This document shows positions 12,304 to 33,391 of a stretch of DNA of 64,000 nt, piece after piece. A program made the translations under genes and the position numbers. The stretch lies in NCBI RefSeq assembly GCF_000019665.1, contig NC_010794.1, positions 806,001-870,000 of the forward strand, in the 5' to 3' direction. Numbering within the stretch: the stretch's first letter is position 1; each line of letters starts with the position of its first letter. Under the pieces are notes generated by a model. The model did no database searches, had not been told where the DNA came from, and saw only the letters and a list, made by a program, of their open reading frames with translations. Origin of the DNA: Methylacidiphilum infernorum V4 (GTDB taxonomy: Bacteria; Verrucomicrobiota; Verrucomicrobiia; Methylacidiphilales; Methylacidiphilaceae).

Positions 12304-12559
12304 AAGTTTATTTAAAGGTTGAGTTCGGAAAAAAAAAAGAAAAATTTGTTGGTTTTGACACGGATCGAATTTTAAAAGTAGCTCCTTCAGCTCCTTGAAA
12401 TTTTTCCCGGTTGACCAGCCCATGTGGCTGTGTAACATTCCCCCACATCGGTAGGGAAGTGCCGGCTCTGATCTTCTCGGTTCTACTGCCCGGAATGGGA
12501 GTTGGTGATCCTCCCGCGTAGGGGGCTATCTCCCCTGACCGCTTACTGACCGCCGCTTG

Positions 12560-13285
12560 GTTTGAAGCCACAATCCCAAGGTGGTTGCGGTATTTTTTGC
12601 CCCAAGTCCTTTCCAGCTTTTTTTAAAGCTTTATGGGCTGCCTCAGCAAATTACTGCTCAATTTCTTCTCCTGGTCGAGCTGTAGGCTACTTCAATTTGT
12701 CTTTTTCCTGCAAGTGGCATCACCGAGCCAAATCCGAGCACTGCCGACTAAACCTTGGGGCTTGCCATAACCGAGTTTATATGAACATATCCAGGGGAAG
12801 AGGGCTAAGATCAATGAATTTTTCAAAAAGTCATGAACCGACTCCGGATAAAGCTCCCCCTAGTTCCCATTTCTTCAAGCTATCAAAGCTCAAGTTCATG
12901 TGCAAACCGCTATCAGCTTTAAAGAGAAAGCTTTTAACGGCGTCCTGTGCTCTTGCGTTGTCCATTTCCTCGATTCCCTTTTAAAGGTCTATGCTTTTTT
13001 TGCACTCGGAGTGGTGAGGGTAGTATTTTCAAGCTATCCATAGCATCGTCCAGTAGCTTCTACGGATATGGTGAGTAGTTGGGAATGGATATCCTGTTTA
13101 ATGGAAAACTCGATGACGCATGGATGCGGATGGTCTAGGATGCGGTGGGGAATACCTTAAATATCCTTATCTTTTTGCTCTTTTTTCACGAAATGTTCTT
13201 CCGAGACTTTTGCCTACAAAGATTCCCCATGCTCAAGATGGGACAAGGGATTTATAGTCAGGATAACTTTACAAGGATACTCCTT
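12560..13285 (-). pseudogene. Remnant of a second cas7-insertion gene
   Basis: On nucleotide inspection this stretch follows the 3' half of the intact gene at 25789-27801. Matching landmarks are TTGGTTTGAAGCCA (12571 on) against CTTGGTTTTGAGCCA (25934 on), GGGGCTTGCCATAACC (12757 on) against GGGGCTTACCATAACC (26139 on), GGTAGTATTTTC (13018 on) against 26393 on, and TCGAGGCTTTTGCC-like sequence near 13205 against 26560 on. A further match near 13228 (CCCATGCTCAAGATG) corresponds to about 26847, so there has been an internal deletion. No long open frame survives. The intact CARF-HEPN gene lies immediately downstream, reproducing the gene order of the main effector operon. Confidence 0.75.
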
Positions 13286-13554
13286 GAGATCGGATACCAG
13301 AAGAACCCGAGGGGAAGGCCTTCCAGGGCAGTGAGCCAAGCTCTCCCTGGCCTGAACAGTGGCCAAAAACCCAATCTTCAGTTGCCGCCTCAGGCTTCAC
13401 TGAGCCAATCTGCACGACCGCTACCGGATCCGCCAAGGCGGACATGACCACGCTACCGCTTGCGTGGCATAGCCTGGCCAGCTCACCTTGCTACTGCGTA
13501 TAACGCTTCGGGTCAACCACGCAGCTATGCTACCCCGTATTGACGAACACCCAT
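13286..13554 (-). pseudogene. cas2: cas2 remnant, copy at the far end of the amplified CRISPR module
   Basis: The sequence matches the two full cas2 copies (19262-19612, 20232-20582), including the start-codon context (ATG at 13552-13554) and the C-terminal part (VMSALADPVAVVQIGSV). About 85 bases are missing between CGCAGC and TATGCTACC, which removes the YDLSD active-site strand and the first helix, so no functional Cas2 can be made. The same deletion occurs in the copy at 18308-18577. Confidence 0.75.
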
Positions 13555-13597
13555 AAAGGGCCTCCATCGTAAAGACCGGCTAGACCTAGTCCTAGGT

Positions 13598-13765
13598 AGC
13601 CTAAGCCCAGTGCACTGGGATACATCATCAACAGTACCAGGTGGGGAACCTGACGGCCACGAGTTTCAAGCCCAGTGCACTGGGATACATCATCAACAGA
13701 TTGGAGAGTAATAAAGACGGATAAGTTTGGGTTTCAAGCCCAGTGCACTGGGATACATCATCAAC
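13598..13765 (-). CRISPR. CRISPR array 5 (3 repeats, 2 spacers)
   Basis: Three 35-base repeats start at 13598 (degenerate at its low-coordinate end), 13663 and 13731; spacers are 30 and 33 bases. The repeat contains a 14-base palindrome CCCAGTGCACTGGG. Read on the minus strand the repeat ends in CTTGAAAC, the type III 5'-tag pattern of crRNAs, so transcription is leftward from the leader at 13766-13900. Confidence 0.95.
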
Positions 13766-13900: not shown

Positions 13901-14089
13901 TTATGGAGGAAAGTCCCCGCCAGCTTCCTTGGTCCAACCCTGTGGAATTGGACGCCAGTCCGAAAGGGTCCCCTCGAGGACAGCTTTTTTGTAGCTATCG
14001 ACCAGCCGTCGTATCCGGGAATGGAGCATGCTACCCCCAATGCCGCGGCAAGCCTTCACAGATCCGGGTCAACGATTGGACGAAAGGCC
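13901..14089 (-). pseudogene. 3' end of cas1 carried in the amplified module
   Basis: Corresponds to the last about 62 codons of the cas1 part at 21260-21447 (CEGLPRHGGSMLHSRIRR region). It lacks the Cas1 catalytic domain and its upstream edge is joined to cas2 sequence, as in the other module copies. Confidence 0.75.
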
Positions 14090-14351: not shown

Positions 14352-15019
14352 TCTTCGTCTTTACAATTAATAAGATGAGAAACTATCTTTGACGCACCTT
14401 TGTAGACCGGAAAGCTGGTGGTGTCTATCATGACCGCGTCTTTTGGCTTAAAAAGATACGACAACTCGTCTCTTTTTTCCACATTGTTGGCCTCGCCGTC
14501 GAGTTTCCTCCTCGACTTTCTTGTCTCAAGATTAGCGTCGAGAAAGAACTTGAACCTTGCTTCGAGGAACATTACTGAGCCGATTTCTCTGCCCTCGACA
14601 ACAATTGGATACTTCGATGCCGGTTCCCTCTATACTGGAAGAAGCAGTATCCTGACCTCGGGGTAGGCCGCGATCGTTGGGACTGCAAAGTTCACCTTGG
14701 GTGACCTCAAGTTGGCCTTGTCTTCAAGGTCGACGCCGTCGATCTCGACATTAAACACCTTGATCGAGTCCTATTTCTTCAGCTTCAAGACAAACTTCAT
14801 ATTCCCGCACGCCTCGATTACGGCCCACTTGTTCCGCCAGTTCACACAGTCATCAAGCAACTTTTGCGTGACCGACCTGTAGAGCAAACTGGTGCTGAAG
14901 TAGGCAAAGCCAGTTATCTTTGCCACTTCCCCCACGACGGTGCTCTTCCCAGATGCCGTGGTCCCGTCGATGGTCACTATTAATTTTGCCACGATTAATA
15001 ATGCGTAGATTAATAACAC
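14352..15019 (-). pseudogene. Cytidylate kinase-like gene with two amber codons, 3' end truncated
   Basis: One continuous reading frame from about 15019 to 14352 spells a (d)CMP kinase-like protein: P-loop TIDGTTASGKSTVVGE near the start, YFSTSLLYRSVT where CMP kinases have the DTGAMYRAVT motif, YPIVVEGREIGSVMFLEA for the EGRDIGTVVFPDA motif, FKFFLDANLETRKSRR, and LFKPKDAVMIDTTSF near the end. Two in-frame TAG codons interrupt it, at about 14771-14773 (after VLKLKK) and about 14630 (within LLLPV-stop-REPASK). In both places Gln would fit the family, so C-to-T changes are likely. The last residues run into the CRISPR repeat at 14351, so the 3' end has been lost. There is no clear ATG start; GTG at 15019 is one option. 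Stop-codon readthrough is not excluded but the truncation favours decay. Confidence 0.7.
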
Positions 15020-15033
15020 CGCAGTAATGAATC

Positions 15034-15312
15034 ATGAAAGAAGTGAAAAAGAACGACGATAAGAATAAGACAAAAGATACGGTTTACAAAGGGAAGACCG
15101 CTAAGAACGGCAAGCCGGTTGTCACGGTGACAGAAAACGGGAAGACAAAGTTCTTCCCTATGTACAACAACGAATTCGACCTGCCGCCAGGCGGGTCATT
15201 CGCCTGGAGATATGGCGGGACCGCTCCCTGGAGGCTGTCTTACTCGATTCTGAGGCACCACACGGACGAGAAGCAGGAAAAGTATGGAAAACTCTGTCTG
15301 GGTTTTCTTTAA
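15034..15312 (+). CDS. Small hypothetical protein, DUF6166-like
   Basis: A 92-residue protein with a Lys-rich N-terminus, then VYKGKTAKNGKPVVTV and a block GGSFAWRYGGTAPWRLSYS (about 56-74). That block resembles the G-x-F-x-W-G-Y-x-G-x-G-P-x-x-L motif of the small DUF6166 family, whose function is unknown. It is divergent from the broken kinase gene with 14 bases between them. No good Shine-Dalgarno sequence is seen. The assignment is tentative; it may also be a remnant. Confidence 0.45.
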   Translation: MKEVKKNDDKNKTKDTVYKGKTAKNGKPVVTVTENGKTKFFPMYNNEFDLPPGGSFAWRYGGTAPWRLSYSILRHHTDEKQEKYGKLCLGFL

Positions 15313-15677
15313 GAAGTTATAGCACACATGGAATTCAACAAGCAATGGACATTTAAAGGATCGCAGGTGAAGGGAAGCAATAGAAAAGATAGAATCTTCC
15401 GGAAAAGAGCTTTAGTTCAAATTCTTGAAAATCGCGTTTTTTTTCTGGCAGGATGAATCTGTTGACTGGGTTCAGACTGCAACAAATGTCGTCTCCTTTG
15501 GAGGCTTTTTTTGTATCTTTTCTTTTTAGGGATCTCAAGTCGGGCGCGAACAAAAGGATAGGGATCTTAAGTCAGACATGAATGCGAGGTTTTCCGAGCA
15601 GGGTAACTGTTTTGCGAAAATTCTGCTACTTCATCGATACTTTTTCCAAGTTCGACAGCTTTTGCCCACTTGGAAGG

Positions 15678-16484
15678 CTAGTGATGGTTTGGATATACCA
15701 TTTTCCGCATCTTTTCCCACTTGTCCGGCTCGTTTTCAACGAAGTGTCGGACAGCCTTGGCGAAGAGCTTGGATCTTCTGTCCGCCATAGTTATGTCGTT
15801 CTTGCCGATGGTAGCGGAAACTTCCACGGCCAGGCACACCAGGTCCCCGGTTTTCTTGTCGAAACCGAAGGCGAATATGTCCGCCTTCCCCACGTCGTTG
15901 CTTTCGGCTTTTGTCAAAACGCCTTTATCTTCCGCAGCCGATATAATATGGCACACAAAGTCTTTGTCTAGGACCTTCAAGTCCAGTATGTCCTCTTTTA
16001 AGGAGAAGGGGAGCTGGTCTTTCGCCTTAGACTCCAGGACGACGTCGTCAATTTCTTCAATTGCTTTCGCAACCAAGTCCAGCTTGCTGTTGCTGGCTCT
16101 CTGGTCAATGCTGATCAGAGTAGCAACGAGATGAACGTCTTCCAGTCTCTTGTCTATCTTCTCCAGTCTCCCGTCTATTCTCTCTGGTCTCATATCTGTC
16201 CTAGCCACATGTTCAGACAGTTCTCTAACAACCCTAGTCAGCTCTCCTATCATCCTGTCGGTATCGGCTTGCCGTTCAGCAAGTTCTCTGACGGCTCCGG
16301 TCAGCTCTCCTAACATTCTGTCGGTATTGGCTTGCCGCTCGGCAAGTTCCCTGACAACCCCAGTCAGCTCCCTGACAACCCTAGTCAGCTCCCCAACAGA
16401 TGCACCCAAGTCTTCGGTCCTGTTTTCTAGTCTTTCTTGCCCGGCGGCAAGTTTGCGAAGCGTCTCTTCAAGTTTCTCTTCCAT
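15678..16484 (-). CDS. Coiled-coil protein with a nuclease-like C-terminal domain (DUF3782-like)
   Basis: The start is placed at the ATG of 16482-16484 (MEEKLEETLRKLA), preceded by a strong GAGGAGG at a proper distance, giving 268 residues. Residues 1 to about 135 are heptad-rich with repeated blocks VRELAERQANTDRMLGELT, predicted to form a coiled coil. The C-terminal part (about 140-268) has a KADIFAFGFDKKTG strand pair followed by LVCLAVEVSATIGKND, the layout of the PD-(D/E)XK-like domain often found behind such coiled coils in DUF3782 proteins; an E-x-K core is not cleanly visible. Function unknown. A truncated paralogue lies at 16965-17381 and the upstream DNA of the two is also duplicated, so the pair arose by local duplication. 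It sits inside the block that split a CRISPR array. Confidence 0.7.
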   Translation of the reverse strand: MEEKLEETLRKLAAGQERLENRTEDLGASVGELTRVVRELTGVVRELAERQANTDRMLGELTGAVRELAERQADTDRMIGELTRVVRELSEHVARTDMRPERIDGRLEKIDKRLEDVHLVATLISIDQRASNSKLDLVAKAIEEIDDVVLESKAKDQLPFSLKEDILDLKVLDKDFVCHIISAAEDKGVLTKAESNDVGKADIFAFGFDKKTGDLVCLAVEVSATIGKNDITMADRRSKLFAKAVRHFVENEPDKWEKMRKMVYPNHH

Positions 16485-16964
16485 GGTTGCCTCCTCTTGA
16501 TCGTGTATCGCTTGCACGCGCTCTCTGCTCTTTATCCGCCTCCGCGTTGAATCCAGGGCTCGCTTCCGAGCATGAATCCGAAACTCATCCTAAAGTCCCG
16601 TTAGTACTCTCGGAGGTAGGCGGCAGTATGTCTTTCTTTTTACGATACGATGAAATGTGTTGATTGTCTACGATGTCGAGCTTAAACCAGAATATAGAAT
16701 CCACTGTATCTATTAAATGCCGGTCTTTTCCTGGTTGAGAGCCGACATGAACGCGCGTTTCGCCGAGCAGGGCAAAAGGATCGAGTTTATAGAAAAGATC
16801 TTGGCCAAGGCGGTCCAGATCGATGTGAAGTCAGCAGAATGATTAAGCCAAAACGGGATACTTAAGTTCCGGCAGAATTTAAGATACCAATTTATTTATT
16901 TTCCCCTGACCCGGGCGGCTTAAACATAGCATGCCACCGGGCCACGCAGTGGGGGAAGATTATC

Positions 16965-17381
16965 TCAAGACAAACGCGAACAAGAGGACAGAGATATTAA
17001 GTCATCAATTGTCTCCACAACCAAGTCCAACTTGCTGTTGCCGGCTCTCTGGTCAATGCTAATCAGAGTAGCAACGAGATGAATGTCTTCCAGTCTTTTT
17101 TCTATTCTCTCTAGTCTCATGTCGGTCCTGGCCGCATGTTCGGACAGTTCTCTAACAACCCTAGTCAGCTCTCCTATCATCCTGTCGGTGTTGGCTTGTC
17201 GTTCGGCAAGTTCTCCGACGGCCCGGGTCAGTTCCCTGACAGCCGACGCCATGTCTTCGAATCTTCTCTCTGTCTTTGCCGACAGCTCTTCGACAGCCGC
17301 AGCCAAGATTTCCGTCTTGTTTTCTAGTCTTTCTTGCCCGGCGGCAAGTTTGCGAAGCGTCTCTTCAAGCTTCTCTTCCAT
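16965..17381 (-). pseudogene. Truncated paralogue of the DUF3782-like gene
   Basis: Same ATG context and first 19 residues (MEEKLEETLRKLAAGQERL) as the gene at 15678-16484, with one coiled-coil block fewer. Similarity stops at about 17003 (LDLVVETIDD), and 12 unrelated residues run to the stop. The whole nuclease-like domain is missing. A short coiled-coil protein could still be made and might act on the full-length one, but this is speculation. Confidence 0.65.
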
Positions 17382-17517
17382 GATTGCCTCTTCTTGCGTG
17401 CTTGGTGCAGACGCGTTCCAGCTTCTTTATCCGCCGCCGCGTCGGCTCCGGGATTCTCTTCCGCGTTTGATTCCGAAGCTCTTCTCCGAGCAGTCTCGGG
17501 CAGTGGCGGGAGTTTGT

Positions 17518-17615
17518 CGTTCTTTTTACGATACAATGAAATGCGTTGATTGTCTACGATGTCGAGTATGAAACCGGAACTTGTCGTCTACTGTATCTAT
17601 TCAAGCCCGGTCTCT
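17518..17615. repeat. Diverged duplicate of 16623-16729
   Basis: Both segments lie just upstream of a DUF3782-like gene copy and share TTTTTACGATAC, GTTGATTGTCTACGATGTCG and ACTGTATCTATT in the same order. A second shared block occurs downstream of the genes (about 15544-15575 and 16974-17003, CGCGAACAA-AGGA-AG-GAT). These mark the limits of a tandem duplication. Confidence 0.6.
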
Positions 17616-17736
17616 TCCTGTGGGCTTCGAAAGTCCGCCGCCAGCAAGGGGCATTATTCCTCATCTCCCAAACCCCGCAGAAACTCTTTTCGTATGTTCC
17701 TGACCATTTTCATCGTGGTTTCGTCATAATTGTGAA

Positions 17737-17969
17737 GTTTCAAGCCCAGTGCACTGGGATACATCATCAACCCAGGTCCAAACCTAGATGAGCAGAATTA
17801 TATGTTTCAAGCCCAGTGCACTGGGATACATCATCAACAGTATACGAAATAGAATACTTAGGAGAAAAAGTTTCAAGCCCAGTGCACTGGGATACATCAT
17901 CAACTTGGAAGAACAGGCGTTTTTACTACAAAAAGTTTCAAGCCCAGTGCACTGGGATACATCATCAAC
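17737..17969 (-). CRISPR. CRISPR array 4 (4 repeats, 3 spacers; trailer repeat displaced to 14317)
   Basis: Repeats start at 17737, 17804, 17870 and 17935; spacers are 32, 31 and 30 bases. All four repeats are near-perfect. Unlike arrays 1, 2, 3 and 5 this one lacks the degenerate trailer repeat at its low-coordinate end; that repeat is found 3.4 kb away at 14317-14351. Confidence 0.95.
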
Positions 17970-18105: not shown

Positions 18106-18293
18106 TCATGGAGGAAAGTCCCCGCCGACTTCCTTGGTCCAACCTTGTGGAATTGGGCGCCAGTCCGAAAGAGTTCCCTCGAGGACAGCTTTTTTGTAGC
18201 TATCGACCAGCCGTCGTATCCGGGAATGGAGCATGCTGCCCCCATGCCGCGGCAAGCCTTCACAGTTCCAGCTAAACGATTGGACGAAATGCC
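18106..18293 (-). pseudogene. 3' end of cas1 in the amplified module
   Basis: Encodes the Cas1 C-terminal tail (CEGLPRHGGSMLHSRIRRL, then SYKKAVLEGTLSDWRPIP), identical in layout to 21260-21447. The upstream edge is fused to cas2 3' sequence. Confidence 0.8.
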
Positions 18294-18307: not shown

Positions 18308-18577
18308 TCACCCGGAGTGACCGGAACCCGAGGGGAAGGCTTTCCAGGGCCGTGAGCCAAGCTCTCCCAGTCCTGAAAAAAGGCCAAAAACCCAATCTTC
18401 AGTTGCCGCCTCAGACTTCACTGAGCCAATCTGCACGATCGCTACCGGATCCGCCAAGGCGGCCATCACCACATTGCCGCTTGCGCAGCGTAGCCCGACC
18501 AGCTCACCTTGCAACTGCGTATAACGCTTCGGGTCAAGCACGCAGCTATGCTATACCACGTATTGACGAACACCCAT
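18308..18577 (-). pseudogene. cas2: cas2 with internal deletion
   Basis: Start context (ATG at 18575-18577, MGVRQY) and the C-terminal part from LDPKRYTQLQGELVGLRC onward are kept, but about 85 bases encoding the YDLSD active-site strand and first helix are missing, with a short AT insertion at the scar. Shares this deletion with 13286-13554. Confidence 0.75.
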
Positions 18578-18621
18578 GAGGGGACCTCTATCTTAAAGAC
18601 CGGCTAGTCCTAGTCCTAGGT

Positions 18622-18924
18622 AGCCTAGGCCCAGTGCACTGGGATACATCATCAACCCAACCCGCCCTCCTGGGCAATTCCTGGGAGTTTCAAGCCCAGT
18701 GCACTGGGATACATCATCAACATCTGGAGAAATCTGAAGCGTTAAGCAGGATAAGTTTCAAGCCCAGTGCACTGGGATATATCATCAACTGAACAGGAAG
18801 AAATTACAATTCCCGCAGAAAGTTTCAAGCCCAGTGCACTGGGATACATCATCAACTGATGCTACAAGGATAATGACACCTCAATTTAGGTTTCAAGCCC
18901 AGTGCACTGGGATATATCATCCAC
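18622..18924 (-). CRISPR. CRISPR array 3 (5 repeats, 4 spacers)
   Basis: Repeats start at 18622 (degenerate trailer form), 18687, 18755, 18822 and 18890; spacers are 30, 33, 32 and 33 bases. Variants GATATATCATCAAC (18755) and CATCCAC (18890, the leader-proximal repeat) occur. Confidence 0.95.
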
Positions 18925-19059: not shown

Positions 19060-19247
19060 TCATGGAAGAAAGTCCCTGCCGGCTTCCTTGGTCCAACGCT
19101 GTGGAATTGGACGCCAGTCCGAAAGTGTTCCCTCGAGGACAGCTTTTTTGTAGCTATCGACCAGCCATCGTATCCGGGAATGGAGCATGGTACCCCCATG
19201 CCGCGGCAAGCCTTCACAGATCTAGCTAAACGATTGGACAAAACGCC
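19060..19247 (-). pseudogene. 3' end of cas1 in the amplified module
   Basis: Same 188-base fragment of the cas1 3' end as in the other units; homology to 21260-21447 ends at the sequence AACGCC. Confidence 0.8.
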
Positions 19248-19656: not shown

Positions 19657-19894
19657 AGCCTAGGCCCAGTGCACTGGGATATATCACCAACTTCCTGAGC
19701 CAGCCGACGCTTTCGCTTCGTTTTGTTTCAAGCCCAGTGCACTGGGATATATCACCAACCAAAGGCCTGGTAAAAGTAAAAGAAGTAGAAGAGTTTCAAG
19801 CCCAGTGCACTGGGATATATCATCAACTAGAAAAGCTAAAGAAAAATGGGGAACAATTTGTTTCAAGCCCAGTGCACTGGGATATATCATCAAC
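19657..19894 (-). CRISPR. CRISPR array 2 (4 repeats, 3 spacers)
   Basis: Repeats start at 19657 (degenerate trailer), 19725, 19793 and 19860; spacers are 33, 33 and 32 bases. All four carry GATATATCA in place of GATACATCA, and the two trailer-side repeats end in CACCAAC, so this array has drifted from the others. Confidence 0.95.
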
Positions 19895-20029
19895 TGTATC
19901 CCTCGCAAGCCATTGCTTGTCAAGGACATTTTTTTGCGTTATTGGCAACCTCGGAATGAATCGAGTCGGATTGGTAAAATTGGGGGGAGGTTCCGAATAC
20001 GGGGATCGAATTCCCAGTAGTTCTTGCGT
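19895..20029 (-). promoter_or_regulatory. CRISPR leader of array 2
   Basis: 135-base copy of the module leader, containing the seven-T run near 19928-19936 and ending at the stop of the cas1 3' fragment. Confidence 0.75.
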
Positions 20030-20217
20030 TCATGGAGGAAAGTCCCCGTCAGCTTCCTTGGTCCAACCCTGTGGAATTGGACGCCAGCCCCGAAAGTGTT
20101 CGCTCGAGGACAACTTTTTGTAGCTATCGACAAGCCGTCGTATCCGGGAATGGAGCATGCTACCCCCATGCCGCGGCAAGCCTTCACAGATCCAGCTAAA
20201 CGATTGGACGAAACGCC
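20030..20217 (-). pseudogene. 3' end of cas1 in the amplified module
   Basis: 188-base fragment matching 21260-21447. Two compensating small indels change SYKKAVLEGTLSD to SYKKLSSSEHFRG, showing that this copy is no longer under selection as Cas1. Confidence 0.8.
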
Positions 20218-20231
20218 CTATCAACTTAGTT

Positions 20232-20582
20232 TCACCCGGAGTGACCTGGACCCGAGGGGAAGGCTTTCCAGGGCAGTGAGCCAAGCTCTCCCAGTCCTGA
20301 AAAAAGGCCAAAAACCCAATCTTCAGTTACCACCTCAGACTTCACTGAGCCAATCTGTACGATCGCTACCGGATCCGCCAAGGCGGCCATCACCACGCTA
20401 CCGCTTGTGCAGCGTAGCCCGGCCAGCTCACCTTGCAACTGCATATAACGCTTCGGGTCAAGCACGCAGCTAAAAAGGCTTTTCTGCAGACGTTGGCCGT
20501 AGCGGGAAATGCAGCGTTCCACCATAGCCCGCTCCCTATTGTCGCTCAAGTCGTATGCTACCCAGTATTGACGAACACCCAT
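20232..20582 (-). CDS. cas2: Cas2, CRISPR adaptation protein (full-length copy)
   Basis: 116 residues, with the conserved Asp in VAYDLSDNRERAMVE, the RYGQRLQKSLFSC segment and the final VVMAALADPVAIVQIG strand of Cas2. It differs from the copy at 19262-19612 by few residues (for example W for G after VRQY and T for A after LRC). It starts 38 bases beyond the trailer repeat of array 1 on the same strand, in the order cas6-cas1, leader, array, cas2. This copy sits closest to cas6-cas1 and is the likeliest functional partner, if Cas1 is made at all. Confidence 0.8.
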   Translation of the reverse strand: MGVRQYWVAYDLSDNRERAMVERCISRYGQRLQKSLFSCVLDPKRYMQLQGELAGLRCTSGSVVMAALADPVAIVQIGSVKSEVVTEDWVFGLFSGLGELGSLPWKAFPSGPGHSG

Positions 20583-20620
20583 GAGGGGACCTCCATCTTA
20601 AAGACCGGCTAGTCCTAGGT

Positions 20621-21124
20621 AGCCTAGGCTCAGTGCACTGGGATATATTATCAACTCGAGCAACACTCCATTGGTTCGCCTCCGTGGGTTTCAAGCCCAG
20701 TGCACTGGGATATATCATCAACTTCTTGCTCCGGATGAAGAGACCACTTTTTCGGGTTTCAAGCCCAGTGCACTGGGATACATCATCAACTTTTATCCCT
20801 GAGGAAGTGGACTCCGTGGTAGTTTCAAGCCCAGTGCACTGGGATACATCATCAACAAATATATGACGATGAATGCAAATGCAAATGGGGTTTCAAGCCC
20901 AGTGCACTGGGATACATCATCAACTTTTATAGCCTAGTCCCAACCGGAGCTCTCCGTTTCAAGCCCAGTGCACTGGGATACATCATCAACAAATATATGA
21001 CGATGAATGCAAATGCAAATGGGGTTTCAAGCCCAGTGCACTGGGATACATCATCAACTTTTATAGCCTAGTCCCAACCGGAGCTCTCCGTTTCAAGCCC
21101 AGTGCACTGGGATACATCATCAAC
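20621..21124 (-). CRISPR. CRISPR array 1 (8 repeats, 7 spacers, one spacer pair duplicated)
   Basis: Repeats start at 20621 (degenerate trailer, AGCCTAGGCTCAGTG), 20688, 20756, 20822, 20890, 20956, 21024 and 21090, each 35 bases; spacers are 31-33 bases. The spacer at 20857-20889 is identical to 20991-21023 and that at 20925-20955 is identical to 21059-21089. A two-unit block has thus been duplicated at the leader end, leaving five distinct spacers. It lies directly downstream of cas6-cas1. Confidence 0.97.
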
Positions 21125-21259
21125 TGTATCCCTCGCAACCCATTGCTTGTCAAGGACATTTTTTTGCGTTATTGGCAACCTCGGAATGAATAGAGTCGGA
21201 TTTGCAAAATTGCGGCGAGGTTCTGAATCCAGGGATCGAATTTCCAATAGATATTGCGT
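21125..21259 (-). promoter_or_regulatory. CRISPR leader of array 1
   Basis: 135 bases between the cas1 stop (21260-21262) and the leader-proximal repeat, plus strand beginning TGTATCCCTCGCAACCC. It probably holds the array promoter and is the parent of the four other leader copies. Confidence 0.8.
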
Positions 21260-23085
21260 TCATGGAGGAAAGTCCCCGCCGACTTCCTTGGTCCAACCCT
21301 GTGGAATTGGACGCCAGTCCGAAAGTGTTCCCTCGAGGACAGCTTTTTTGTAGCTATCGACCAGCCGTCGTATCCGGGAATGGAGCATGCTACCCCCATG
21401 CCGCGGCAAGCCTTCACAGATCCGGGTAAACGATTGGACGAAACGCCGGCGTGCTTCCGGTCTCAACCACAGAAGACCGTCTTGGAAGACAAAATCTTTT
21501 GGTTGGATCATCTTGAGATGAATCAAACGGATCACCAACCGATCGACCTCGGGCCGGAAGATTTCCACCAGGTCGCTGACGAGCGCTTCGTGCCGCCCGT
21601 TAGCCTCGTGGAGGACACCAAGGTAAGGATCAAGTCCAGCTAAGCGGACGGCAACCCCTAGCCGATGCCGGAGAAGGGCATACCCATAGTTGAGGGCTAG
21701 GTTGACCGGATCCTGGGTTTGCCCGTGCGTGCGACGCTCTTCAAAGCCTCCCAGTTGGTTGACCTGTTGGGCGAACCATCGCCAGTAGTGTCGGCTGGCC
21801 CATCCTTCCCAGCCGCGCACGGCGGGCAGTTGCCGGGCATGAACGAGGCCGACGCAGGCTCTCTTGAACCTGACCAGGAGCTTGTGGTCGTCCGGGCGGT
21901 AACGTTGGCGCACAATGTGGGCATACCGGCCAGCTTGGCGGAAATGAGCCTGGCGGCGAGCTGGACGCGGCCGGGCTCGTCAAGGCTTTGCCATGCGGAG
22001 TGATGGGCGGCGAGGGTGCGATAGCGATTGGCCTCTGCTGAGGGACCGAGGATGTGGATCGGGGTTCGTCCCGGAAGAGCCAAAAGAACGGGGATATCCA
22101 ACTCGGCACAGGCTTGCAACAGTGCGGTGCTGACTTGACAAGCCGAATGGAGCTCAATGTTAGAGATGCGCAAGAGAGGAAGAAGCTTGATGGACTCGTC
22201 TGCGGATGTTTCCACCACCAAGTTGGCATTGGATAGGCTCAGGCGGCAGCCATGGAGATGGACATCGAGCACAAAAGGACGTCGCAGTTGAAGAGGTGCG
22301 GGATCGTTTTGTCCGGGGACCACAACTTCAGCCGATCGTAGCTCCAGTCGTCCATGAGAAAAAGAAAGTCGTTCACCCAGTCCCACGGCAGCAAAGAGTG
22401 CCAGCCAGGGTTTCCATGCTGGAAGCTCAGGCCCGAAAAGGCGCAAAGGGCCAATGCAACCGTGGAGAAACATGGGATTTCCCCGTTGTGAAGAGGAGCG
22501 ATGGGCGGTACGCCAATACTGCCAAGAGGTGGTGTCAAGCTCGGGCGGGGGCGGGAGTTGCCCCTCGGTGCCGAAGAGCTTGCGCAGCCGGCTTTGGCAT
22601 AGGCGCAGAAACCCTTCGCCATCGAGGGCTGTGCGGGGTGTACCCGGGCGGTGTGGAAGGGGGACGGGGGTAAGGAAATCCAAGGCTAAAGCAGGGGAAG
22701 GTTCTTTGGTTGGAGATGGGGGCTTGGCTACTCGCCAGGGGCTTACCTTTAAAAGGTCGAAGTTTTGTCCCCTTTCGGTAAAGCGGGCATAGAGTTGCTC
22801 AATCCATGCTTGAATCGAGGATGTGCCCAGGCCGAAAAGCTGGACGGTTATCGGGATACGGCTACCTGTCTCCCAGCCCATGGCTTCGACCTTGACACCG
22901 GGCCACCACCAGAGTTGCTTGACGGTAGAAGGGTCGAGGTGGGCGGATTCGAATACTCCCTTAAGAAGAGCTTCTAGTACGGCCAAGGGATGTGCTCGGC
23001 GCGGTGGAGAGTGGGCTCGCAGCACAAGATCGATCTCCAACCAAGAGAGCTGATAAAGACGATCGACGCAAAGAGGTTGGATCAT
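21260..23085 (-). pseudogene. Cas6-Cas1 fusion gene, frameshifted inside cas1
   Basis: The first frame (23085 down to about 21920) encodes an N-terminal Cas6-type RAMP domain: GWETGSRIPITVQLFGLG (about 70-87) and, near 205-255, a C-terminal block GCIGPLRLFGPELPAWKPW ending in GERLSFSHGRLEL. A Cas1 N-terminal domain then begins around RPFVLDVHLHGCRLSLSN (about 285) with LLPLLRISNIELHSACQVS. At about 21915-21930 the frame is lost. The second frame (to the TGA at 21260) carries on with HIVRQRYRPDDHKLL and holds the Cas1 catalytic residues: Glu in RGWEGWASRHYW, the DPVNLALNYGYALL motif, His in GVLHEANGRHEAL and Asp/Glu in SDLVEIFRP. A one-base loss in the GGCCGGTATG segment would explain the break. 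I see no strong slippery sequence. Unless frameshifting or a sequencing error is involved, Cas6 activity may survive while Cas1 does not. The ATG overlaps the stop of a broken upstream gene (ATGA). Confidence 0.8.
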
Positions 23086-25788: not shown

Positions 25789-27801
25789 TTAAGTGTAGCC
25801 CTCGAGCAGGTCATTGAAATTTACTCGAGCGCCGCGCCGGGCGGCGGCCTGCCAGCTTCTCAGCTTTGCGTGGAACCGGTAGATCGTGCCATATAGGGTA
25901 GGGTAGCTGGCACGACCGGTTGTGGACCACTGCTTGGTTTTGAGCCAGCATTCCAAGTTGGCAGCGGTATTACTCTGCCATGTCTTTTGCAGCTTTTCTT
26001 TAAGGGCCTTAAGGCTGGTCTCGAGTAGGCGATCCCAAGCCTCTTCACCCGCTCGAGCTTCTTTCCATTCCAATCTGTCGTTTTCCTGCCAGCGGGCGGC
26101 ATCGAGCCGAATGCGAACGCTGCCCAGGCCCAGGGGCTTACCATAACCCAACTTGTGGGCATATCCTTGGGAATAAGGGGTAAGCCCAAAGGTTTTTTCA
26201 AGGAGGCCTGGGTCGAGCACGGCCAAAACTGCACCCAGTTCCCATGGTCGCAGGCTGTCAAAACGCAGGGTGGCACGGAATCTGGTCCCCGGCTTGGACA
26301 GGTAGCACACGACGGTCCCCCGTTCCTTCGAGTTGTCTTTTTCCTCGGTTTTCTTGTAAAGGTCCATGTTTGTTCTCGCATCGGGCTGGTGGCGGTAGTA
26401 TTTTCTGCCGGCAAGCTCTCCTCCGGGATCGTCGGGCAGGTCACCGTAGGTAGTAAGCTTGTTTGGAAGATGAACCTGTTTGAGATAGAACTCGACGGCA
26501 CTTGGACGCGGCTGTCCGAGGATGTGTAGGGCAATCTCCCTACCTCCTTCAACGAAACGTTCTTCGAGGCTTTTGCCCTCTGTTACTTCAATGGCGGTGT
26601 TAAAAGCAATCCGTCCCGCAAGCCTTTGGTAGCTCTCTTTGGCCATCGAAGAAAGTTCCTTCTGTTTATTGTCAATGGAATAGCCAAAAAAGAGCCGGGC
26701 TGCAGTCAGTTGCTTTGGGGCACCCTTTTTGTCAAATGTTTCCTGTGGGTGAAATCCCAGTTCGGGCCTCAATTCCTTATTTTCCCCAATGGAGTTTTTG
26801 TAGCAAACGCTGCTTGTGTAAGCCCAGCGGTAGTAGAAATGATGGCCCATGCTCAAGATGCGAAAGGGGGGATTCCCAGGCTTCCTCTCTAGGTTTTCGA
26901 TCTCGATATAGATAAGCTGCTTTTCCTTTAGCTCGGAGTGATTCTGTATGGCTTCTTTTACTTCTTTTACTTTATCTTTAATCTCGTTTAGCAGCGGATG
27001 GCCTGGGCTTAAATGGCCGGTCTTTTCATCGGCAAGGATTTCCTGGGTTTCGTAGTAATCCTTTAAGACTTTTGAGGGAAGAGATTGGCTATCAGCTCGG
27101 TTAAAATCACTGGTGTGAACCAAGACATAACGATAGATTTCATTACTCGGCCTGAAAGCCTTGGCTAGGAGGCCTTCCCCGTCGATTCCTCCCGAATAGA
27201 AAAAAAGGTAATGATCGAGATTTTTTCCTCCTTCAGAGCTTTTTTCCAGTACCATGCATCGTGAGGTACGGGTAGGGGTAAATTTTATTCCGGGGAAATA
27301 TCCTTGAAGCAGCTTGCCAACCTTTTCATCGGGCTTGGGAATGGCTGAATTCCGAACGAAGGTAACGCGGGTGTCATCCGGCAAAACCTTCAGCTCGATC
27401 TCGGCGTTTTCGTCCTTTCCCTTGACAGAGCTGATTACTGCGGGACGCGATTGGTATTTTTGACCGAAACCGAGGTTGGGCCGGAAGGTATAGCGGTGGT
27501 CGCCAACCCTTTCCATCGGTGCGTGCAAGAGGCTTGAGAGGGCTGCACGGAACATCCCCTTGAGGCTTGTTCCGGCGATGAGAACACGGCCGTCCTCCAG
27601 CATTTGAGGGAAAAGTACGCTTTGCTTTTCATTGATTTTGTACTGTTGGTTACCGACGAGCAGAGGGGTAAGGGCTTCCAAGGTGAGGAGGATTTCACCG
27701 CTCAGGCGATCTTCCCCGCTGCTGCCGTCGCGCCACATGGGAACATCGCAGATCGATTTTTGAACTTCTATGGGTAAGAAACCGTAGGGAAGGGAATTCA
27801 T
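25789..27801 (-). CDS. Cas7 with large insertion, type III-D effector subunit
   Basis: A 670-residue RAMP protein with the layout of the TIGR03986-type/Cas7-insertion subunit. The N-terminal RAMP region has GEILLTLEALTPLLVGN (about 35-51) and VLIAGTSLKGMFRAALSSLL (about 72-91), the glycine/serine loop plus helix of Cas7. A long charged insertion spans roughly residues 120-330. The C-terminal half resumes the RAMP fold (LAGRIAFNTAIEV, GTRFRATLRFDSLRPWELGA) and includes a glycine-rich YAHKLGYGKPLGLGSVRI loop (about 560-577). In III-Dv complexes this protein forms part of the crRNA-bound backbone. Last intact gene of the operon, 15 bases after the Csx19-position gene. A remnant second copy lies at 12560-13285. 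Confidence 0.85.
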   Translation of the reverse strand: MNSLPYGFLPIEVQKSICDVPMWRDGSSGEDRLSGEILLTLEALTPLLVGNQQYKINEKQSVLFPQMLEDGRVLIAGTSLKGMFRAALSSLLHAPMERVGDHRYTFRPNLGFGQKYQSRPAVISSVKGKDENAEIELKVLPDDTRVTFVRNSAIPKPDEKVGKLLQGYFPGIKFTPTRTSRCMVLEKSSEGGKNLDHYLFFYSGGIDGEGLLAKAFRPSNEIYRYVLVHTSDFNRADSQSLPSKVLKDYYETQEILADEKTGHLSPGHPLLNEIKDKVKEVKEAIQNHSELKEKQLIYIEIENLERKPGNPPFRILSMGHHFYYRWAYTSSVCYKNSIGENKELRPELGFHPQETFDKKGAPKQLTAARLFFGYSIDNKQKELSSMAKESYQRLAGRIAFNTAIEVTEGKSLEERFVEGGREIALHILGQPRPSAVEFYLKQVHLPNKLTTYGDLPDDPGGELAGRKYYRHQPDARTNMDLYKKTEEKDNSKERGTVVCYLSKPGTRFRATLRFDSLRPWELGAVLAVLDPGLLEKTFGLTPYSQGYAHKLGYGKPLGLGSVRIRLDAARWQENDRLEWKEARAGEEAWDRLLETSLKALKEKLQKTWQSNTAANLECWLKTKQWSTTGRASYPTLYGTIYRFHAKLRSWQAAARRGARVNFNDLLEGYT

Positions 27802-27816
27802 AGGCTTATCATCGTT

Positions 27817-28317
27817 CTATAAATCCAGTGTCCAAGCCACTCGCCTACCTTTTAGAAAGAAGTGTTTTATGGAAAGGGGTTCGCGTAAGAGATGGTCAGG
27901 CGACAAGCCGAAACGGCCTATGTCTTGCCAGCAATAAACCTCCGTGGTTTTGCACTCCAACCCGTCGATCTGTTGGACATTTTCCGGAGAATCCAATGGA
28001 AGGAGACTCCATGTTATTTTTTGGGCGGGTAACCGGCTCAAGGGTTGAGCATCGTAGAAATGATGCCAGCGATTCGGTTCGTAGAGGGTGGCTGCAAGCA
28101 GCGGCAGATCGTCCAGTCCATCCGGCAGTCTTCGAACGAGGGGGTAAAGCCACCGCAGCCGACCCCAGAGAAAGCTGCCGTCACACTCGAGAAGCCAAGC
28201 ACGGGGTTCGAGAGAGATCCAAGAGGGATCGTTGCCCGAGATATGTTGACGGAGCAAGCCAATGGTCAGCCGCCCGGCAAGGTCTTGACGGAGCAGGTAA
28301 AGCCGCTGTCCATTCAT
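27817..28317 (-). CDS. Csx19-position small subunit of the type III-D effector operon
   Basis: A 166-residue protein rich in Trp, Leu and Arg (for example SWISLEPRAWLLECDGSFLW and RLRWLYPLVRRLPDGLDDLP). I do not recognise motifs strongly, but its place between the double Cas7 and the Cas7-insertion gene and its size fit Csx19 (TIGR03984-type) of III-D loci. Its ATG overlaps the stop of the double Cas7 gene by four bases (ATGA). Assignment rests mainly on context. Confidence 0.6.
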   Translation of the reverse strand: MNGQRLYLLRQDLAGRLTIGLLRQHISGNDPSWISLEPRAWLLECDGSFLWGRLRWLYPLVRRLPDGLDDLPLLAATLYEPNRWHHFYDAQPLSRLPAQKITWSLLPLDSPENVQQIDGLECKTTEVYCWQDIGRFGLSPDHLLREPLSIKHFFLKGRRVAWTLDL

Positions 28318-29765
28318 GGTGTTTTTGGGATAATACGGGTGTTGGTTGAATCCTCATCCCGGTCCAGGGTCCAGCGGATATGACCGTGTCCCCGCCAGGA
28401 CCCTCCTCCGAGAGGCAGGTGGCCATCACCTAAGCACTGGAGCATCTTGACCAAGGGATCAGCCAGTTTTTCCGCCTCTTGTTGTTTTGCTGCGGTGATT
28501 TCGGCCCTCCATCGGAAACGGCCATGGGCGATGCAGAGCCGGTCGAACTTGGATGCACCGTAGACACCACCGCTGAATTCATCTATGGACAGCTGCTGCT
28601 GCCAAAGAAGTTTCCAGTCCTCGTTATCCAAAATCCCATCCGATATACTTAGGGAACCGGCTTGTTGGGTGGTACCAAAGAGTTTCTCGACCAGCTCTTT
28701 CCCTGCGTTCCCTTCTTGCAAGGCTTGGCAGTAACGTTCGAGACCTGCCCTCCAAACGCCCCGGATGCTGGCAGCTGGGATGTAGGGAACAAGACCTCCT
28801 CCAGGGGTGGGCATGGCGGTGATGACGAAGTCCGGATCGAAATCTTCTTTCTTGAAGTGGATCTCCTCTTCTTTCTTGAAGTGGATCTCCGAGGGCGGGA
28901 TTGGCGGGATTACCCGATTAAAAAACTCATTGGCTTGGAGCTGGAGGCGGGCATGCCCCCCGATGGAGAGGGTGTCCAGGCCGTATCCCTTGCCGAAATC
29001 GTCGGCTCGTTCCCCTACCTCGATCGTTCCGGAGAAAACGACATATCCACGCGGAGCTTGCTTCGACACAGGCTGCGTAGTGCGCAAAAAACTGTCCAGA
29101 TCGAGCAAGGGTATATTGTTATCTTGGAAAAATTGTCTCAAGGCCTCTCCTCTTTGCCCCGTCGCAAAGGCATTGGGCCAAAGGCGGACATGCCGACTAT
29201 CGAGTCGGACGATGGCGATCTTTTCCAAATGGGCCCAGCCGTAGCCGTGTCGGCTCCCACGTCCGATACGCGCACCGCCCTTTTTACTCCAAGTCGCCAG
29301 CACTTCCGCGGCCATTCCTTCAAGTTGTGCAAAATCACATTCATCGGAAGGAGCGATCTCAAGCAAGAAATCCCAAGAGGTTCCCTCTGGTAGCGCCTCA
29401 ATGCTAAATAGGCAGTTCTCCCGTGCGGCCAGGGTGCGCCGGTCTATGCTGACATGCTGGAAGAAGACCGTTTGGGCATGCATTTGAAGCAGATGGGCAT
29501 GGGCAAACCTCCAGGCCGAGGCAGTCGCCTTTTGATCGCCTTTGCCGGTGGGTGTTTCGAGGGTGATTGCAGAAGGTAGCTTGGGGAAAAGGGCACGTGC
29601 CTGGGCAATAAAACATCCAGCAAGGGTGCTTCCCCGCAAAATCGGCCGACCGAGACCGTCACGAGCAAGGGGTAGATTTGCAAACCCGTGAGGATTATTC
29701 CCCCCCACCGAGAGAGCACTGTCTTGGACAAGGTGGGCAAAAACCAGGGTTCGATAGGGTTTCAT
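28314..29765 (-). CDS. Double Cas7 (Cas7-2x) RAMP protein, type III-D effector subunit
   Basis: Start at the ATG of 29763-29765 (MKPYRTLVFAHLVQDS), which overlaps the upstream stop (ATGA) and has GGAGG eight bases ahead; 483 residues. Two Cas7 domains are visible in tandem. The first has GRPILRGSTLAGCFIAQAR (about 40-58), the catalytic-type loop HVSIDRRTLAARENCLFSIE (about 103-122) and GGARIGRGSRHGYGWAHL (about 162-179). The second has AASIRGVWRAGLERY (about 330-344), LSIDEFSGGVYGASKFDRL (about 390-408) and LPLGGGSWRGHGHIRW (about 447-462). The Asp in SIDR and SIDE corresponds to the Csm3/Cmr4 residue that cuts target RNA. A repeated EIHFKKEE motif at about 290-305 is a short internal tandem duplication in the linker. 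Confidence 0.88.
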   Translation of the reverse strand: MKPYRTLVFAHLVQDSALSVGGNNPHGFANLPLARDGLGRPILRGSTLAGCFIAQARALFPKLPSAITLETPTGKGDQKATASAWRFAHAHLLQMHAQTVFFQHVSIDRRTLAARENCLFSIEALPEGTSWDFLLEIAPSDECDFAQLEGMAAEVLATWSKKGGARIGRGSRHGYGWAHLEKIAIVRLDSRHVRLWPNAFATGQRGEALRQFFQDNNIPLLDLDSFLRTTQPVSKQAPRGYVVFSGTIEVGERADDFGKGYGLDTLSIGGHARLQLQANEFFNRVIPPIPPSEIHFKKEEEIHFKKEDFDPDFVITAMPTPGGGLVPYIPAASIRGVWRAGLERYCQALQEGNAGKELVEKLFGTTQQAGSLSISDGILDNEDWKLLWQQQLSIDEFSGGVYGASKFDRLCIAHGRFRWRAEITAAKQQEAEKLADPLVKMLQCLGDGHLPLGGGSWRGHGHIRWTLDRDEDSTNTRIIPKTP

Positions 29766-31804
29766 CCGCAAGGCTCCTCCTTCGATTTTTTGCCCGACAA
29801 AAACCAACGGACGAAGTAATCCAGAAAGGTCTTGGCATCGGTCAGCGGCAGACTCGATACCTGGCTTTGCAGCTTAGGAAATTCCCGGTGTTCGACAATC
29901 TCTTTCCACGCCTTGCCTCCGAGACGTTTTGAGGCGTCTTTGAGCGAGTCGAAAATCTTGTCGATTTCCTCTTTGGTGGAGGCTGCCTGGATGGCGGCAC
30001 GAAATTCGCCCCATTGGCTTGGACTGGGTTGGGACTTTATCTTGTCGAACTTATAGTACCATTCTTGGGCTTTCCTGCAGAGCTTCTCTTCGTTGTCATA
30101 GAATGCATGTTCAGGGGCACTGGTAGAGACTTCTGTCTCGGAAGACAGACGGCATTGCGGCTCGGGCAAAAAGTCGATCCGGAAACGGCCGAAACCTTCC
30201 TCAGGACACTCGCCTAGGGCAAGGTACTCGGCAAGTCTCTGCCGAAGTTCAGTTGCTCCTTCTCCTTCGATCCAGACCACCGAGCCGGCTTTAATTGAGA
30301 GTTGGGCAAGGCGTGGAAGTCCCGTGGCGGCGTTGAAGCCCAACAGTTCGCGGCTTTCGCTAAAACTTTTCCTCGTTATGAGCCGATCGGCAGGGAACCC
30401 GACAAGATCGGCAATGGTCTTCGCCTCGAGCCGTTCGACGAAGTTGCCTAGGGAGTCCCGTGCGATGAGGTCGCTTTCCAAAAGTAGCGTAAAACCCTCG
30501 GAAACCAATTTGCTGCCATGCGTTGCCGGGGGTAGCCACGTTGCGGAGACAAGTTCAAGGGGACGACCGCCTCGGCCAACCCGCAGCCAGCAACGGGCCA
30601 CAACTTGGAGTGCTTCTTTGAGGATCTCGATCTGCCGCGGCTCGGTGAGGAGGATGTCCGCCAAAAAGTGTGTCCCTTCGGCGATTTCCTCCATGCTAAA
30701 AAGGGCTTGTTCTGTTTTATTGTACTCGCTGGGCACGCGTGTATGAAGCCTTTCTAGGATTTGGGGCCTGTAGCGTTGCCAACGACTGTCCTTGGGACTC
30801 TTCCTAAAGAGGAATTCCTCTTCCTTGGGACGGTCGAGATTTTCTTGGTCCTGGGGTTGTTGGAGGATCAGGTCTTTTTCCCCCCGGTCGCCTAGAAAAT
30901 CTCCCCGCTGCGATGTGGCCCACCAGGGTAGATCCGAGCTTGGAGCCTTGGCCTTCGGTGTGCCGATGGACAAAGGTATGGGTAAAACCTCAAATTGCTC
31001 GAACCCCTCGCATCCCACCGACTGCGGTAGGGGTAGGGCATCGCCCCAGGACAAGGTGTCAGCGAGGAGTCCCTGTGCCAATTGGGCTTTCCCGTTTTGC
31101 AGGCAATTTGCCACGAAAGCCCCGCGCAAGGTACGGCCGCGGATAAAACTTAAGCTGGCGATGAGATTGCCCGGATGCCCGGTTAGAGGCAAACAGATCG
31201 GATCGAGATTGCGTAGCAGCAAGCGCAAGCGGCAAGGAGTCCCGGATGCCTTTTCTCTTGGAACAGGCGTGGCATGCGGAGCTTGCTCGGTCCAACTCCA
31301 GCGGATTCGACCGTTGCCGCGCTGACGACCGCTACCCAGCGAATCGGTACGGGCGACGATCGCCTTGAAGAGCTCAAGCAATTGCGTTTCCCCATCGGGC
31401 AACATCGCTTCCATCCTGAACCGGCTACCTGCCGGGATATACTCAAAGAAACGGAGAGATCCCTCATCTGCCGTCCCACTACGAGGAGAAATACGGGTGC
31501 TCCCCCAGATAAGAGCTTTGGGCACCTGTTGAGCATCGCAATACGCCCCGGTCAATTGAAGCTTTCCCTGTTTTTTGCCTGCACAGCCAAACAGCTCATC
31601 GATCTGTTGGCACGAGATAGACTGCGGATCGAAACGATGCCATTCCAATGCAGCACTGCGCATCACCCCCTTGATATGGCTAGAGGGTAAAACGGGCCGA
31701 CCAAGCCGGTCTCGGACCTGCAAGGCATCGATATCTCCCCATCCGATCCCTGCTCCGATGTGGAGATCTTCTAAAAGTTCAATCTCTAGCGTAAAACGGC
31801 TCAT
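29762..31804 (-). CDS. Cas7-Cas5-Cas11-like fusion protein, type III-D variant effector
   Basis: A 680-residue multidomain protein. Residues 1 to about 175 form a Csm3/Cas7-type RAMP: FTLEIELLEDLHIGAGIG, GRPVLPSSHIKGVMRSAAL, and GSGRQRGNGRIRWSW at its end. Residues about 190-555 look like a Cas5/Csx10-type RAMP: LTGHPGNLIASLSFIRGRTL with RGAFVANCL, and a C-terminal CPEEGFGRFRIDFLPEP. The last about 110 residues are helical and charged (YDNEEKLCRKAQEWYYKFDK, then FLDYFVRWFLSGKKS) and would be the Cas11-like small subunit. This order is the one described for the III-Dv complex, regarded as an intermediate toward single-protein type III-E effectors. It starts 24 bases after cas10 and overlaps the double Cas7 gene by four bases. 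Confidence 0.85.
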   Translation of the reverse strand: MSRFTLEIELLEDLHIGAGIGWGDIDALQVRDRLGRPVLPSSHIKGVMRSAALEWHRFDPQSISCQQIDELFGCAGKKQGKLQLTGAYCDAQQVPKALIWGSTRISPRSGTADEGSLRFFEYIPAGSRFRMEAMLPDGETQLLELFKAIVARTDSLGSGRQRGNGRIRWSWTEQAPHATPVPREKASGTPCRLRLLLRNLDPICLPLTGHPGNLIASLSFIRGRTLRGAFVANCLQNGKAQLAQGLLADTLSWGDALPLPQSVGCEGFEQFEVLPIPLSIGTPKAKAPSSDLPWWATSQRGDFLGDRGEKDLILQQPQDQENLDRPKEEEFLFRKSPKDSRWQRYRPQILERLHTRVPSEYNKTEQALFSMEEIAEGTHFLADILLTEPRQIEILKEALQVVARCWLRVGRGGRPLELVSATWLPPATHGSKLVSEGFTLLLESDLIARDSLGNFVERLEAKTIADLVGFPADRLITRKSFSESRELLGFNAATGLPRLAQLSIKAGSVVWIEGEGATELRQRLAEYLALGECPEEGFGRFRIDFLPEPQCRLSSETEVSTSAPEHAFYDNEEKLCRKAQEWYYKFDKIKSQPSPSQWGEFRAAIQAASTKEEIDKIFDSLKDASKRLGGKAWKEIVEHREFPKLQSQVSSLPLTDAKTFLDYFVRWFLSGKKSKEEPCG

Positions 31805-31828: not shown

Positions 31829-33391
31829 TTACTTCCGTAGGATTTCGTAGATCTCCACTATGTCGGGCACGAAGGAAAAGAGATAGGTTTGGACAAATGG
31901 CCTCAACTCCCCTTCCAAAAGCTTGCCCATTTCTTCAGGTAGCTCCGCCCAGGCTAGCTCGGCTACTGTCCGTCCAATGCGCATTTTCTCAACCAACTGG
32001 CGCAACTGGGAACGGGACAGCTCTTGAGATTCCTTGATCTTATACTTGATCTTATCCACGGACTCAAGCAGCGTGCAAAGGCCTTTTTCACCCAGGATCG
32101 GGTAGGGCTTGTTGCTGAGCACGGTGTTGCCAACGAGGCTATCGGCACGCCTCTCGGCAATCGGGTCATTGACCCAGGAATTGGTAGTCAGGTGCCAATC
32201 CACTACAGAACGTACTTCTGGTTTTGCCCGGTAAAGCCGTTTGGCGCTGTCGGCAAGAGAAACGGCCATCTCATGAAGCCGATAAAAAGGGAATTTCGAC
32301 TTGGCAAATGTCACCCCGGTACCGATGGTTAGGGGTTCTCCATCACAGAGGGGTAAGTCCGAGAGTTTCCGGGCATAAGCAGTAACAAACGGGAGTGCAT
32401 AGGTAGCTGCACAGACCAACAACAGGTCGTCTCCCCCCAACATTAACAGTTGATACTTATTGGGATCCTTATCTGGATCCTTGCCAAAGACCTCGCTAAG
32501 CGACTGGGTCAGTGCTTTCCTGACCGCAACGCGCATGCTAAGAAAAAACTCTTCCCCATGTGCTTCGCTTGCCAGGCTGCCATCCCGGTCGACGTCCCCG
32601 AGATGGCGTTTCCACTGTTGGTAGCGGTTCCCGATTCCGTTGCCGTCTGCGTAGATGAGCGCAATATAACCGCGATTGTCCTCAAGATCCTCAAGACTTT
32701 TCGGCTGTTTATCGGGAGTAGGAGTAGGAATCAACCGCTCCTTTTCCAAGAGGCCGATCAAGTCCGCAGGGTTTTCGCGATAGCTCCTTCCTCTTTCCTC
32801 CAACTCTTTTTCTTCATCGCTGAGAAATTGTTCCTGTTGTTGTTCCTGTTGTTGTTTCTGTTGTACCTTTGGTGCAGCAGGTCGGTTGCCTAGATGGTGA
32901 CTGACCTGGAATGCAGGATGTTGGAAAAGGCTCGTTCCAAGGGATGGCCCCGGTTCCTTTTGCCCCTCGATCCAGGCATCCACCATGATCCCAGGCAATT
33001 TGGTGCCGATAAGATTGTATGCCTTTTCCAAGAAGGAGCGGGCCGTATTTTCCGAAGGGAATGTTGCAATGAAGTGTCCGCCATCACGCACAAGCACACC
33101 GGTCCGCTTGTAGAGAAGCCGTGGGTCATCCGCAAGAAGTTCATCTCTTGAGGATGATTTGTTTAACGGATCGTCGCTTTTCCTTTCGGGAAGTTTTTCG
33201 GCGATTGTTGGGTCCGCCTTGGCCCCGCAGTTTTTGGCTAAATCAGGGAGATGAACCCGGATCGTCTGTCCTAGGATCGAATTTGCCCCCAACATGGCCC
33301 TCAACCGCGGCGAAGCAAACAGGTAGGCCTGGATGCGCTTGAATTCGAGTTCGAGCTTGACTAGTTTAGATGCTGAAGGACAATCACTCAA
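31829..33391 (-). CDS. cas10: Cas10, type III CRISPR effector large subunit, without HD domain
   Basis: A 520-residue, short Cas10. The N-terminus begins directly with a RAMP-like region (LELEFKRIQAYLFASPRLRA, then MLGANSILGQTIR, the usual GAS-x-L helix). No HD nuclease motif precedes it. A Gln-rich linker sits at about 177-188, the first palm aspartate motif YADGNGIGNRYQQW at about 247-260, and the cyclase motif LLMLGGDDLLLVC at about 315-327. The intact GGDD predicts cyclic oligoadenylate synthesis on target RNA binding, matching the CARF-HEPN ribonuclease at 10543-12303. DNA cleavage by Cas10 itself is not expected. First gene of the effector operon; its promoter should lie in 33392-33650. 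Confidence 0.92.
   Translation of the reverse strand: MSDCPSASKLVKLELEFKRIQAYLFASPRLRAMLGANSILGQTIRVHLPDLAKNCGAKADPTIAEKLPERKSDDPLNKSSSRDELLADDPRLLYKRTGVLVRDGGHFIATFPSENTARSFLEKAYNLIGTKLPGIMVDAWIEGQKEPGPSLGTSLFQHPAFQVSHHLGNRPAAPKVQQKQQQEQQQEQFLSDEEKELEERGRSYRENPADLIGLLEKERLIPTPTPDKQPKSLEDLEDNRGYIALIYADGNGIGNRYQQWKRHLGDVDRDGSLASEAHGEEFFLSMRVAVRKALTQSLSEVFGKDPDKDPNKYQLLMLGGDDLLLVCAATYALPFVTAYARKLSDLPLCDGEPLTIGTGVTFAKSKFPFYRLHEMAVSLADSAKRLYRAKPEVRSVVDWHLTTNSWVNDPIAERRADSLVGNTVLSNKPYPILGEKGLCTLLESVDKIKYKIKESQELSRSQLRQLVEKMRIGRTVAELAWAELPEEMGKLLEGELRPFVQTYLFSFVPDIVEIYEILRK

Follow-up and report, generated by a model that had tools for sequence, protein, structure and literature searches.

Fusions of Cas6, a reverse transcriptase (RT) and Cas1 are thought to couple the capture of spacers from RNA with crRNA processing. 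They are known mainly from type III CRISPR systems, which is also the setting of the locus described here, and those that we compared (Marinomonas MMB-1, Thiomicrospira 7KFT/7KFU and Vibrio aerogenes) share with it the order of the parts, Cas6 first and Cas1 last, and a similar predicted Cas6 fold. They differ from it in carrying the RT between Cas6 and Cas1, in proteins of about 1,000 aa, and in having cas2 directly after cas1. In RT-Cas1 and Cas4-Cas1 fusions, Cas1 likewise stands behind another CRISPR protein, the partner there being RT or Cas4 and not Cas6. Among the Cas6-RT-Cas1, RT-Cas1 and type I loci compared, cas2 directly follows cas1, except in Allochromatium where it precedes cas1. 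The literature searched, which took in a minority of subscription papers, yielded no account of Cas6 fused directly to Cas1.

Methylacidiphilum infernorum V4 is a methane-eating bacterium that likes heat and acid. Its genome is a single contig of 2,287,145 bp encoding one cas1 and two intact cas2 genes; the stretch analyzed here, called the window, comprises 64,000 nucleotides (genome positions 806001-870000) and supplies the coordinates used below (Table 1). The genome paper gives cas1 (Minf_0870) as truncated and counts 25 repeats in 6 clusters (PMC2474590), and a comparison from 2019 restates the truncated cas1 and mentions two Cas2 proteins (PMC6688271). The truncation has therefore been known since 2008; neither the Cas6 fusion nor the repeat architecture is described in the available text of these two papers.

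Table 1. Coordinates of the fusion gene, the five downstream units (U1-U5) and the effector genes in the M. infernorum V4 window.
Feature	Position	Strand	Basis or remark
Cas6 (crRNA endonuclease) domain, fusion start, intact	22336..23085	-	PADLOC Cas6, homologue alignment, model
Cas1 N-terminal (beta) domain, same frame as Cas6	21931..22272	-	PF01867 positions 5-123, E 1.7e-10
Net -1 frameshift site	21925..21935 (about)	-	both frames aligned to intact Hydrogenophilus fusion
Out-of-frame tail and stop of 462-aa product	21697..21930	-	
Cas1 catalytic domain, other frame, open	21260..21930	-	PF01867 positions 129-282, E 1.8e-40; invariant columns
Leader of array U1	21125..21259	-	51-bp block identical in all five copies, with TTGACA
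CRISPR array U1, 8 repeats (35 nt), duplicated spacer pair, degenerate last repeat	20621..21124	-	
cas2 copy 1, intact, 116 aa	20232..20582	-	PF09827, E 5.8e-11
cas1 3' end copy, U2, two frame lesions	20030..20217	-	
CRISPR array U2, 4 repeats	19657..19894	-	
cas2 copy 2, intact, 116 aa	19262..19612	-	
cas1 3' end copy, U3, TAG stop	19060..19247	-	
CRISPR array U3, 5 repeats	18622..18924	-	
cas2 remnant, U3, internal deletion of about 120 bp	18308..18600	-	
cas1 3' end copy, U4	18106..18293	-	
CRISPR array U4, 4 repeats; last repeat (14317-14351) separated by insert	17737..17969	-	
Insert of about 3.4 kb in array U4, two related coiled-coil reading frames	14352..17736		
cas1 3' end copy, U5, one frame lesion	13901..14088	-	
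CRISPR array U5, 3 repeats	13598..13765	-	
cas2 remnant, U5, tandem end	13170..13590	-	continues into different flanking DNA
Type III-D effector genes: TIGR03986 protein, Csx19, Cas7-like fusion, Cas5/Csx10-like	25789..31804	-	
Cas10, GGDD motif	31829..33391	-	PADLOC Cas10, E 1e-89
CARF-HEPN accessory ribonuclease, R-x4-H kept	10543..12438	-	PADLOC, E 6.7e-126

A direct Cas6-Cas1 fusion and its relatives

Cas6, the N-terminal domain of Cas1 and its catalytic domain occupy 1,826 bp of the minus strand (23085-21260) and are divided between two reading frames. Frame A runs from an ATG at 23085 to a stop at 21697 and encodes 462 aa. Its residues 85-250 match Cas6 (PADLOC PDLC01477, E 5e-10; PADLOC Cas6 also at E 1.4e-7) and the glycine-rich C-terminal motif GLGERLSFSHGR is present, consistent with membership of this sequence family; the Pfam and NCBIfam Cas6 models gave no match to this part of the fusion. 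PF01867 positions 5-123 fall on residues 277-399 of the same frame. Frame B (21979-21260) contains all the invariant catalytic residues of Cas1 (E, H and D/E) and is open for 224 codons, a length expected by chance at about 6e-4 given the base composition. Both Cas1 halves score above the PF01867 cut-off. No RT family match was found between Cas6 and Cas1 in the V4 fusion or in its homologues; the Vibrio aerogenes protein, the positive control for this search, gave RVT_1 at 1.2e-36.

An intact Cas6-Cas1 protein of 575 aa is encoded on plasmid pTH1 of Hydrogenophilus thermoluteolus (WP_119336250.1), and a second intact copy is found in H. thiooxidans. As in V4, Cas6 sits directly on Cas1 with no RT, and both halves are 34-38% identical to those of V4 (38% for the Cas6 domain). 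Frames A and B both align to the pTH1 protein, end to end. Given these intact relatives, the direct fusion without RT is genuine as judged from sequence; a first-pass annotation of this DNA had read a Cas6-type domain joined directly to Cas1, in agreement with the profile matches, the lack of RT and the relatives reported here. The repeats are related as well (GTCGACACTGTTATCCCAACCGGTTGGGCTTGTGAC versus GTTGATGATGTATCCCAGTGCACTGGGCTTGAAAC), with the common core TATCCCA-N6-TGGGCTTG, and pTH1 has the same unusual order of cas6-cas1, leader, array and cas2. Unlike in V4, the Hydrogenophilus frame is intact, no tandem cassettes with cas1 ends were seen, cas2 on pTH1 is cut off after its start by an Rpn-type gene, and no type III effector is present among the annotated pTH1 genes viewed. 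The H. thiooxidans contig stops within the array. Two Piwi-domain genes are also found on pTH1 (18187-20478 of our locus L037 and 9595-11045 of locus L017), and the genes listed for this plasmid include no CRISPR effector.

Across 1,854 bp the two Hydrogenophilus modules share 99.3% identity, yet their 3 and 11 spacers have none in common, so that intact RT-free fusions probably acquire spacers. Rapid turnover of spacers beside a nearly unchanged gene is good indirect evidence for acquisition.

Further relatives were sparse. A scan of 84,980 species with two short peptide patterns, which may miss distant relatives, returned H. thiooxidans only. In 387 Verrucomicrobiota genomes the Cas6 part had no close homologue and one weak match with internal stops (genome G256, E 6e-4), and no homologue was found in viral contigs. 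Long Cas1 reading frames in Methylacidimicrobium and other relatives (loci L004, L010 and L015) were considered as candidate fusions and rejected, their N-terminal sequence being that of Cas4-Cas1; the same applied to a Rhodothermus candidate.

Did the direct fusion arise from a Cas6-RT-Cas1 ancestor by loss of the RT, rather than by independent fusion? The V4 Cas6 domain modelled alone was too poor for use (pLDDT 43.8). With respect to the two RRM-like (RAMP) folds typical of Cas6, modelling of the intact homologue gave low confidence (pLDDT 49.7 overall), and the model's best match among Cas6 structures is the Cas6 of the MMB-1 Cas6-RT-Cas1 protein (6dd5; E 5e-5, Z 8.4). The Cas6 domains of the two fusion types also match each other at the profile level. 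The direct fusion and the Vibrio Cas6-RT-Cas1 share a gap of one residue behind the catalytic region, but the RT-free Allochromatium Cas1 has an identical gap. In the Cas1 tree the Cas6-Cas1 proteins group together in a single clade (98/93). A single clade with Cas6-RT-Cas1 was not rejected (AU p 0.07) and grouping with I-C/I-D/Cas4-type Cas1 was disfavoured (p 0.025), but the best tree leaves the two fusion types apart, with weak deep branches. We regard descent by RT loss as a tentative proposal, somewhat short of an even chance.

Tandem leader-array-cas2 units

The segment made up of the 3' end of cas1, a leader, a short array and cas2 occurs five times downstream of cas1. Two of the five cas2 copies are intact and three are damaged. 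The 51-bp leader block is the same in every copy; whole copies differ by 4-8%. There are 17 spacers in total and none is common to any two arrays, which indicates that the arrays were filled, or turned over, after copying. One junction is common to the four copied cas1 ends, pointing to a single first duplication that was multiplied later, and the fifth cas2 gives way to other DNA, where the tandem ends. As far as our literature search went, these five units are unreported so far; they are the larger feature of the locus, and the first-pass annotation had overlooked them, just as it lacked the truncation published in 2008.

The five units span 13170-21447, a stretch that holds all 25 repeats of the genome; a copied cas1 3' end stands before four of the five. 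Within array U1, a spacer pair and its repeats are exactly duplicated (20822-21089). The two reading frames of the U4 insert (15678-16517 and 16965-17381) are themselves a duplication, 85-89% identical. On pTH1, the array end and the DNA that follows it are duplicated (about 93-98%; 2387-2569 and 3843-4024 of locus L017) around the Rpn/Transposase_31 gene interrupting cas2, another such event among Cas6-Cas1 modules. The leaders were not flagged by a simple promoter scan. A search for spacer targets within the window gave none that was convincing, and one 20-nt match at 95%, to a spacer of low complexity, was put down to chance.

The break in the cas1 reading frame

The V4 sequence does not provide one continuous Cas1 reading frame. 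The first-pass annotation had placed the loss of frame near 21915-21930; on the intact Hydrogenophilus protein frames A and B adjoin without a missing codon, which places a net -1 shift close by, at about 21925-21935. Every Cas1 catalytic residue lies downstream. The PF01867 matches and the invariant columns bear out the earlier description of a break after the N-terminal domain with the catalytic residues whole in the other frame.

Regulated frameshifting, also suggested in that annotation, would yield a Cas6-only protein alongside the full Cas6-Cas1. Both frames are open, the net shift of -1 has the sign usual for such events and both products would be meaningful, but the possible shift window contains neither a slippery -1 heptamer (X XXY YYZ) nor a homopolymer of at least four, and neither intact relative needs a shift. 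We consider programmed frameshifting very improbable. Equally improbable are two independent genes, one for Cas6 with the Cas1 N-terminal domain and one for a free Cas1 catalytic domain with its own start: frame B does offer a GTG at 21913, but this codon has no Shine-Dalgarno sequence upstream, the resulting Cas1 would be without its N-terminal domain, and the relatives have a single continuous frame.

The most fitting reading of the break is a one-base loss at a late stage, or else a base-calling error made in 2008. When aligned, the copied cas1 ends show four frame lesions over 748 bp; the parent gene has one in 1,826 bp versus 9.8 expected (P of one or fewer about 6e-4, in a test that has four events only and assumes independence and no gene conversion). 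Fewer lesions in the parent than in the copies suggest that cas1 was under selection after the duplications, which would make the break, if real, a late one. That the lesion is the sole one in 1,826 bp of a gene seemingly constrained until recently would suit a sequence error, in which case the living strain would have an intact fusion and active adaptation; the site is GC-rich (GGCCGG) and the Sanger reads came from plasmid clones, so a base-calling error is possible. Against this, the 43,008 reads obtained for 2.29 Mb, together with finishing reads, suggest deep coverage (estimated about 13x), the shift site is outside the tandem repeats, and the genome authors, in the available text, accepted the truncation (PMC2474590). 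On balance a sequence error appears unlikely, if the most serious of the competing explanations of the break.

The effector genes and the meaning of the locus

The locus has the proteins of type III-D systems (Cas10, Csx10/Cas5-III-D, Csx19 and Cas7-III-D). The type III-D systems compared similarly have Cas10, Csx10/Cas5-like, Csx19 and TIGR03986-type Cas7 proteins nearby; V4 differs from them in its adaptation module, with a direct Cas6-Cas1 and an array between cas1 and cas2. An HD motif was looked for in Cas10 and not found. Two models found no further Cas6 in the V4 genome. The Cas6 half of the fusion and the type III-D effector set look intact from their sequences. A minus-strand frame at 24851-25357 resembles an incomplete and decayed duplicate of the CARF-HEPN gene (common stretch SRFFKQ.LIRK).

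The account that we favor, and consider probable, is that of a copied module followed by late inactivation of cas1 with Cas6 kept. A compact module for adaptation and processing, composed of Cas6-Cas1 without RT, a leader, a short array and cas2, would serve the type III-D effector and its CARF-HEPN accessory ribonuclease. The segment from the cas1 3' end through cas2 would have been copied in tandem at an earlier time, leaving five units, each array then being filled with its own spacers. A later net loss of one base would have put the whole Cas1 catalytic domain out of frame. As the whole Cas6 domain is present in the 462-aa product, pre-crRNA processing and interference could probably go on with spacer acquisition dead; loss of adaptation with retained crRNA processing, one of the readings offered at first pass, is now the leading one. 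V4 would then likely hold a frozen memory, in which old guides are made and used and new ones are not added.

For the family, we put forward, with less assurance than the account for V4, that the direct Cas6-Cas1 fusion represents a distinct kind of module, mobile and free of RT, that unites integrase and maturase and has its array between cas1 and cas2; in M. infernorum it may have grown by copying of the whole cassette, one protein feeding five arrays before its Cas1 half was lost. An RT-free fusion that probably acquires spacers would allow a direct test of the role of the Cas6 link for Cas1 alone. If the break is real, the V4 copy would be a case in nature where the use of memories is uncoupled from their writing. 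The tandem cassettes show one route to many short arrays from a single adaptation gene.
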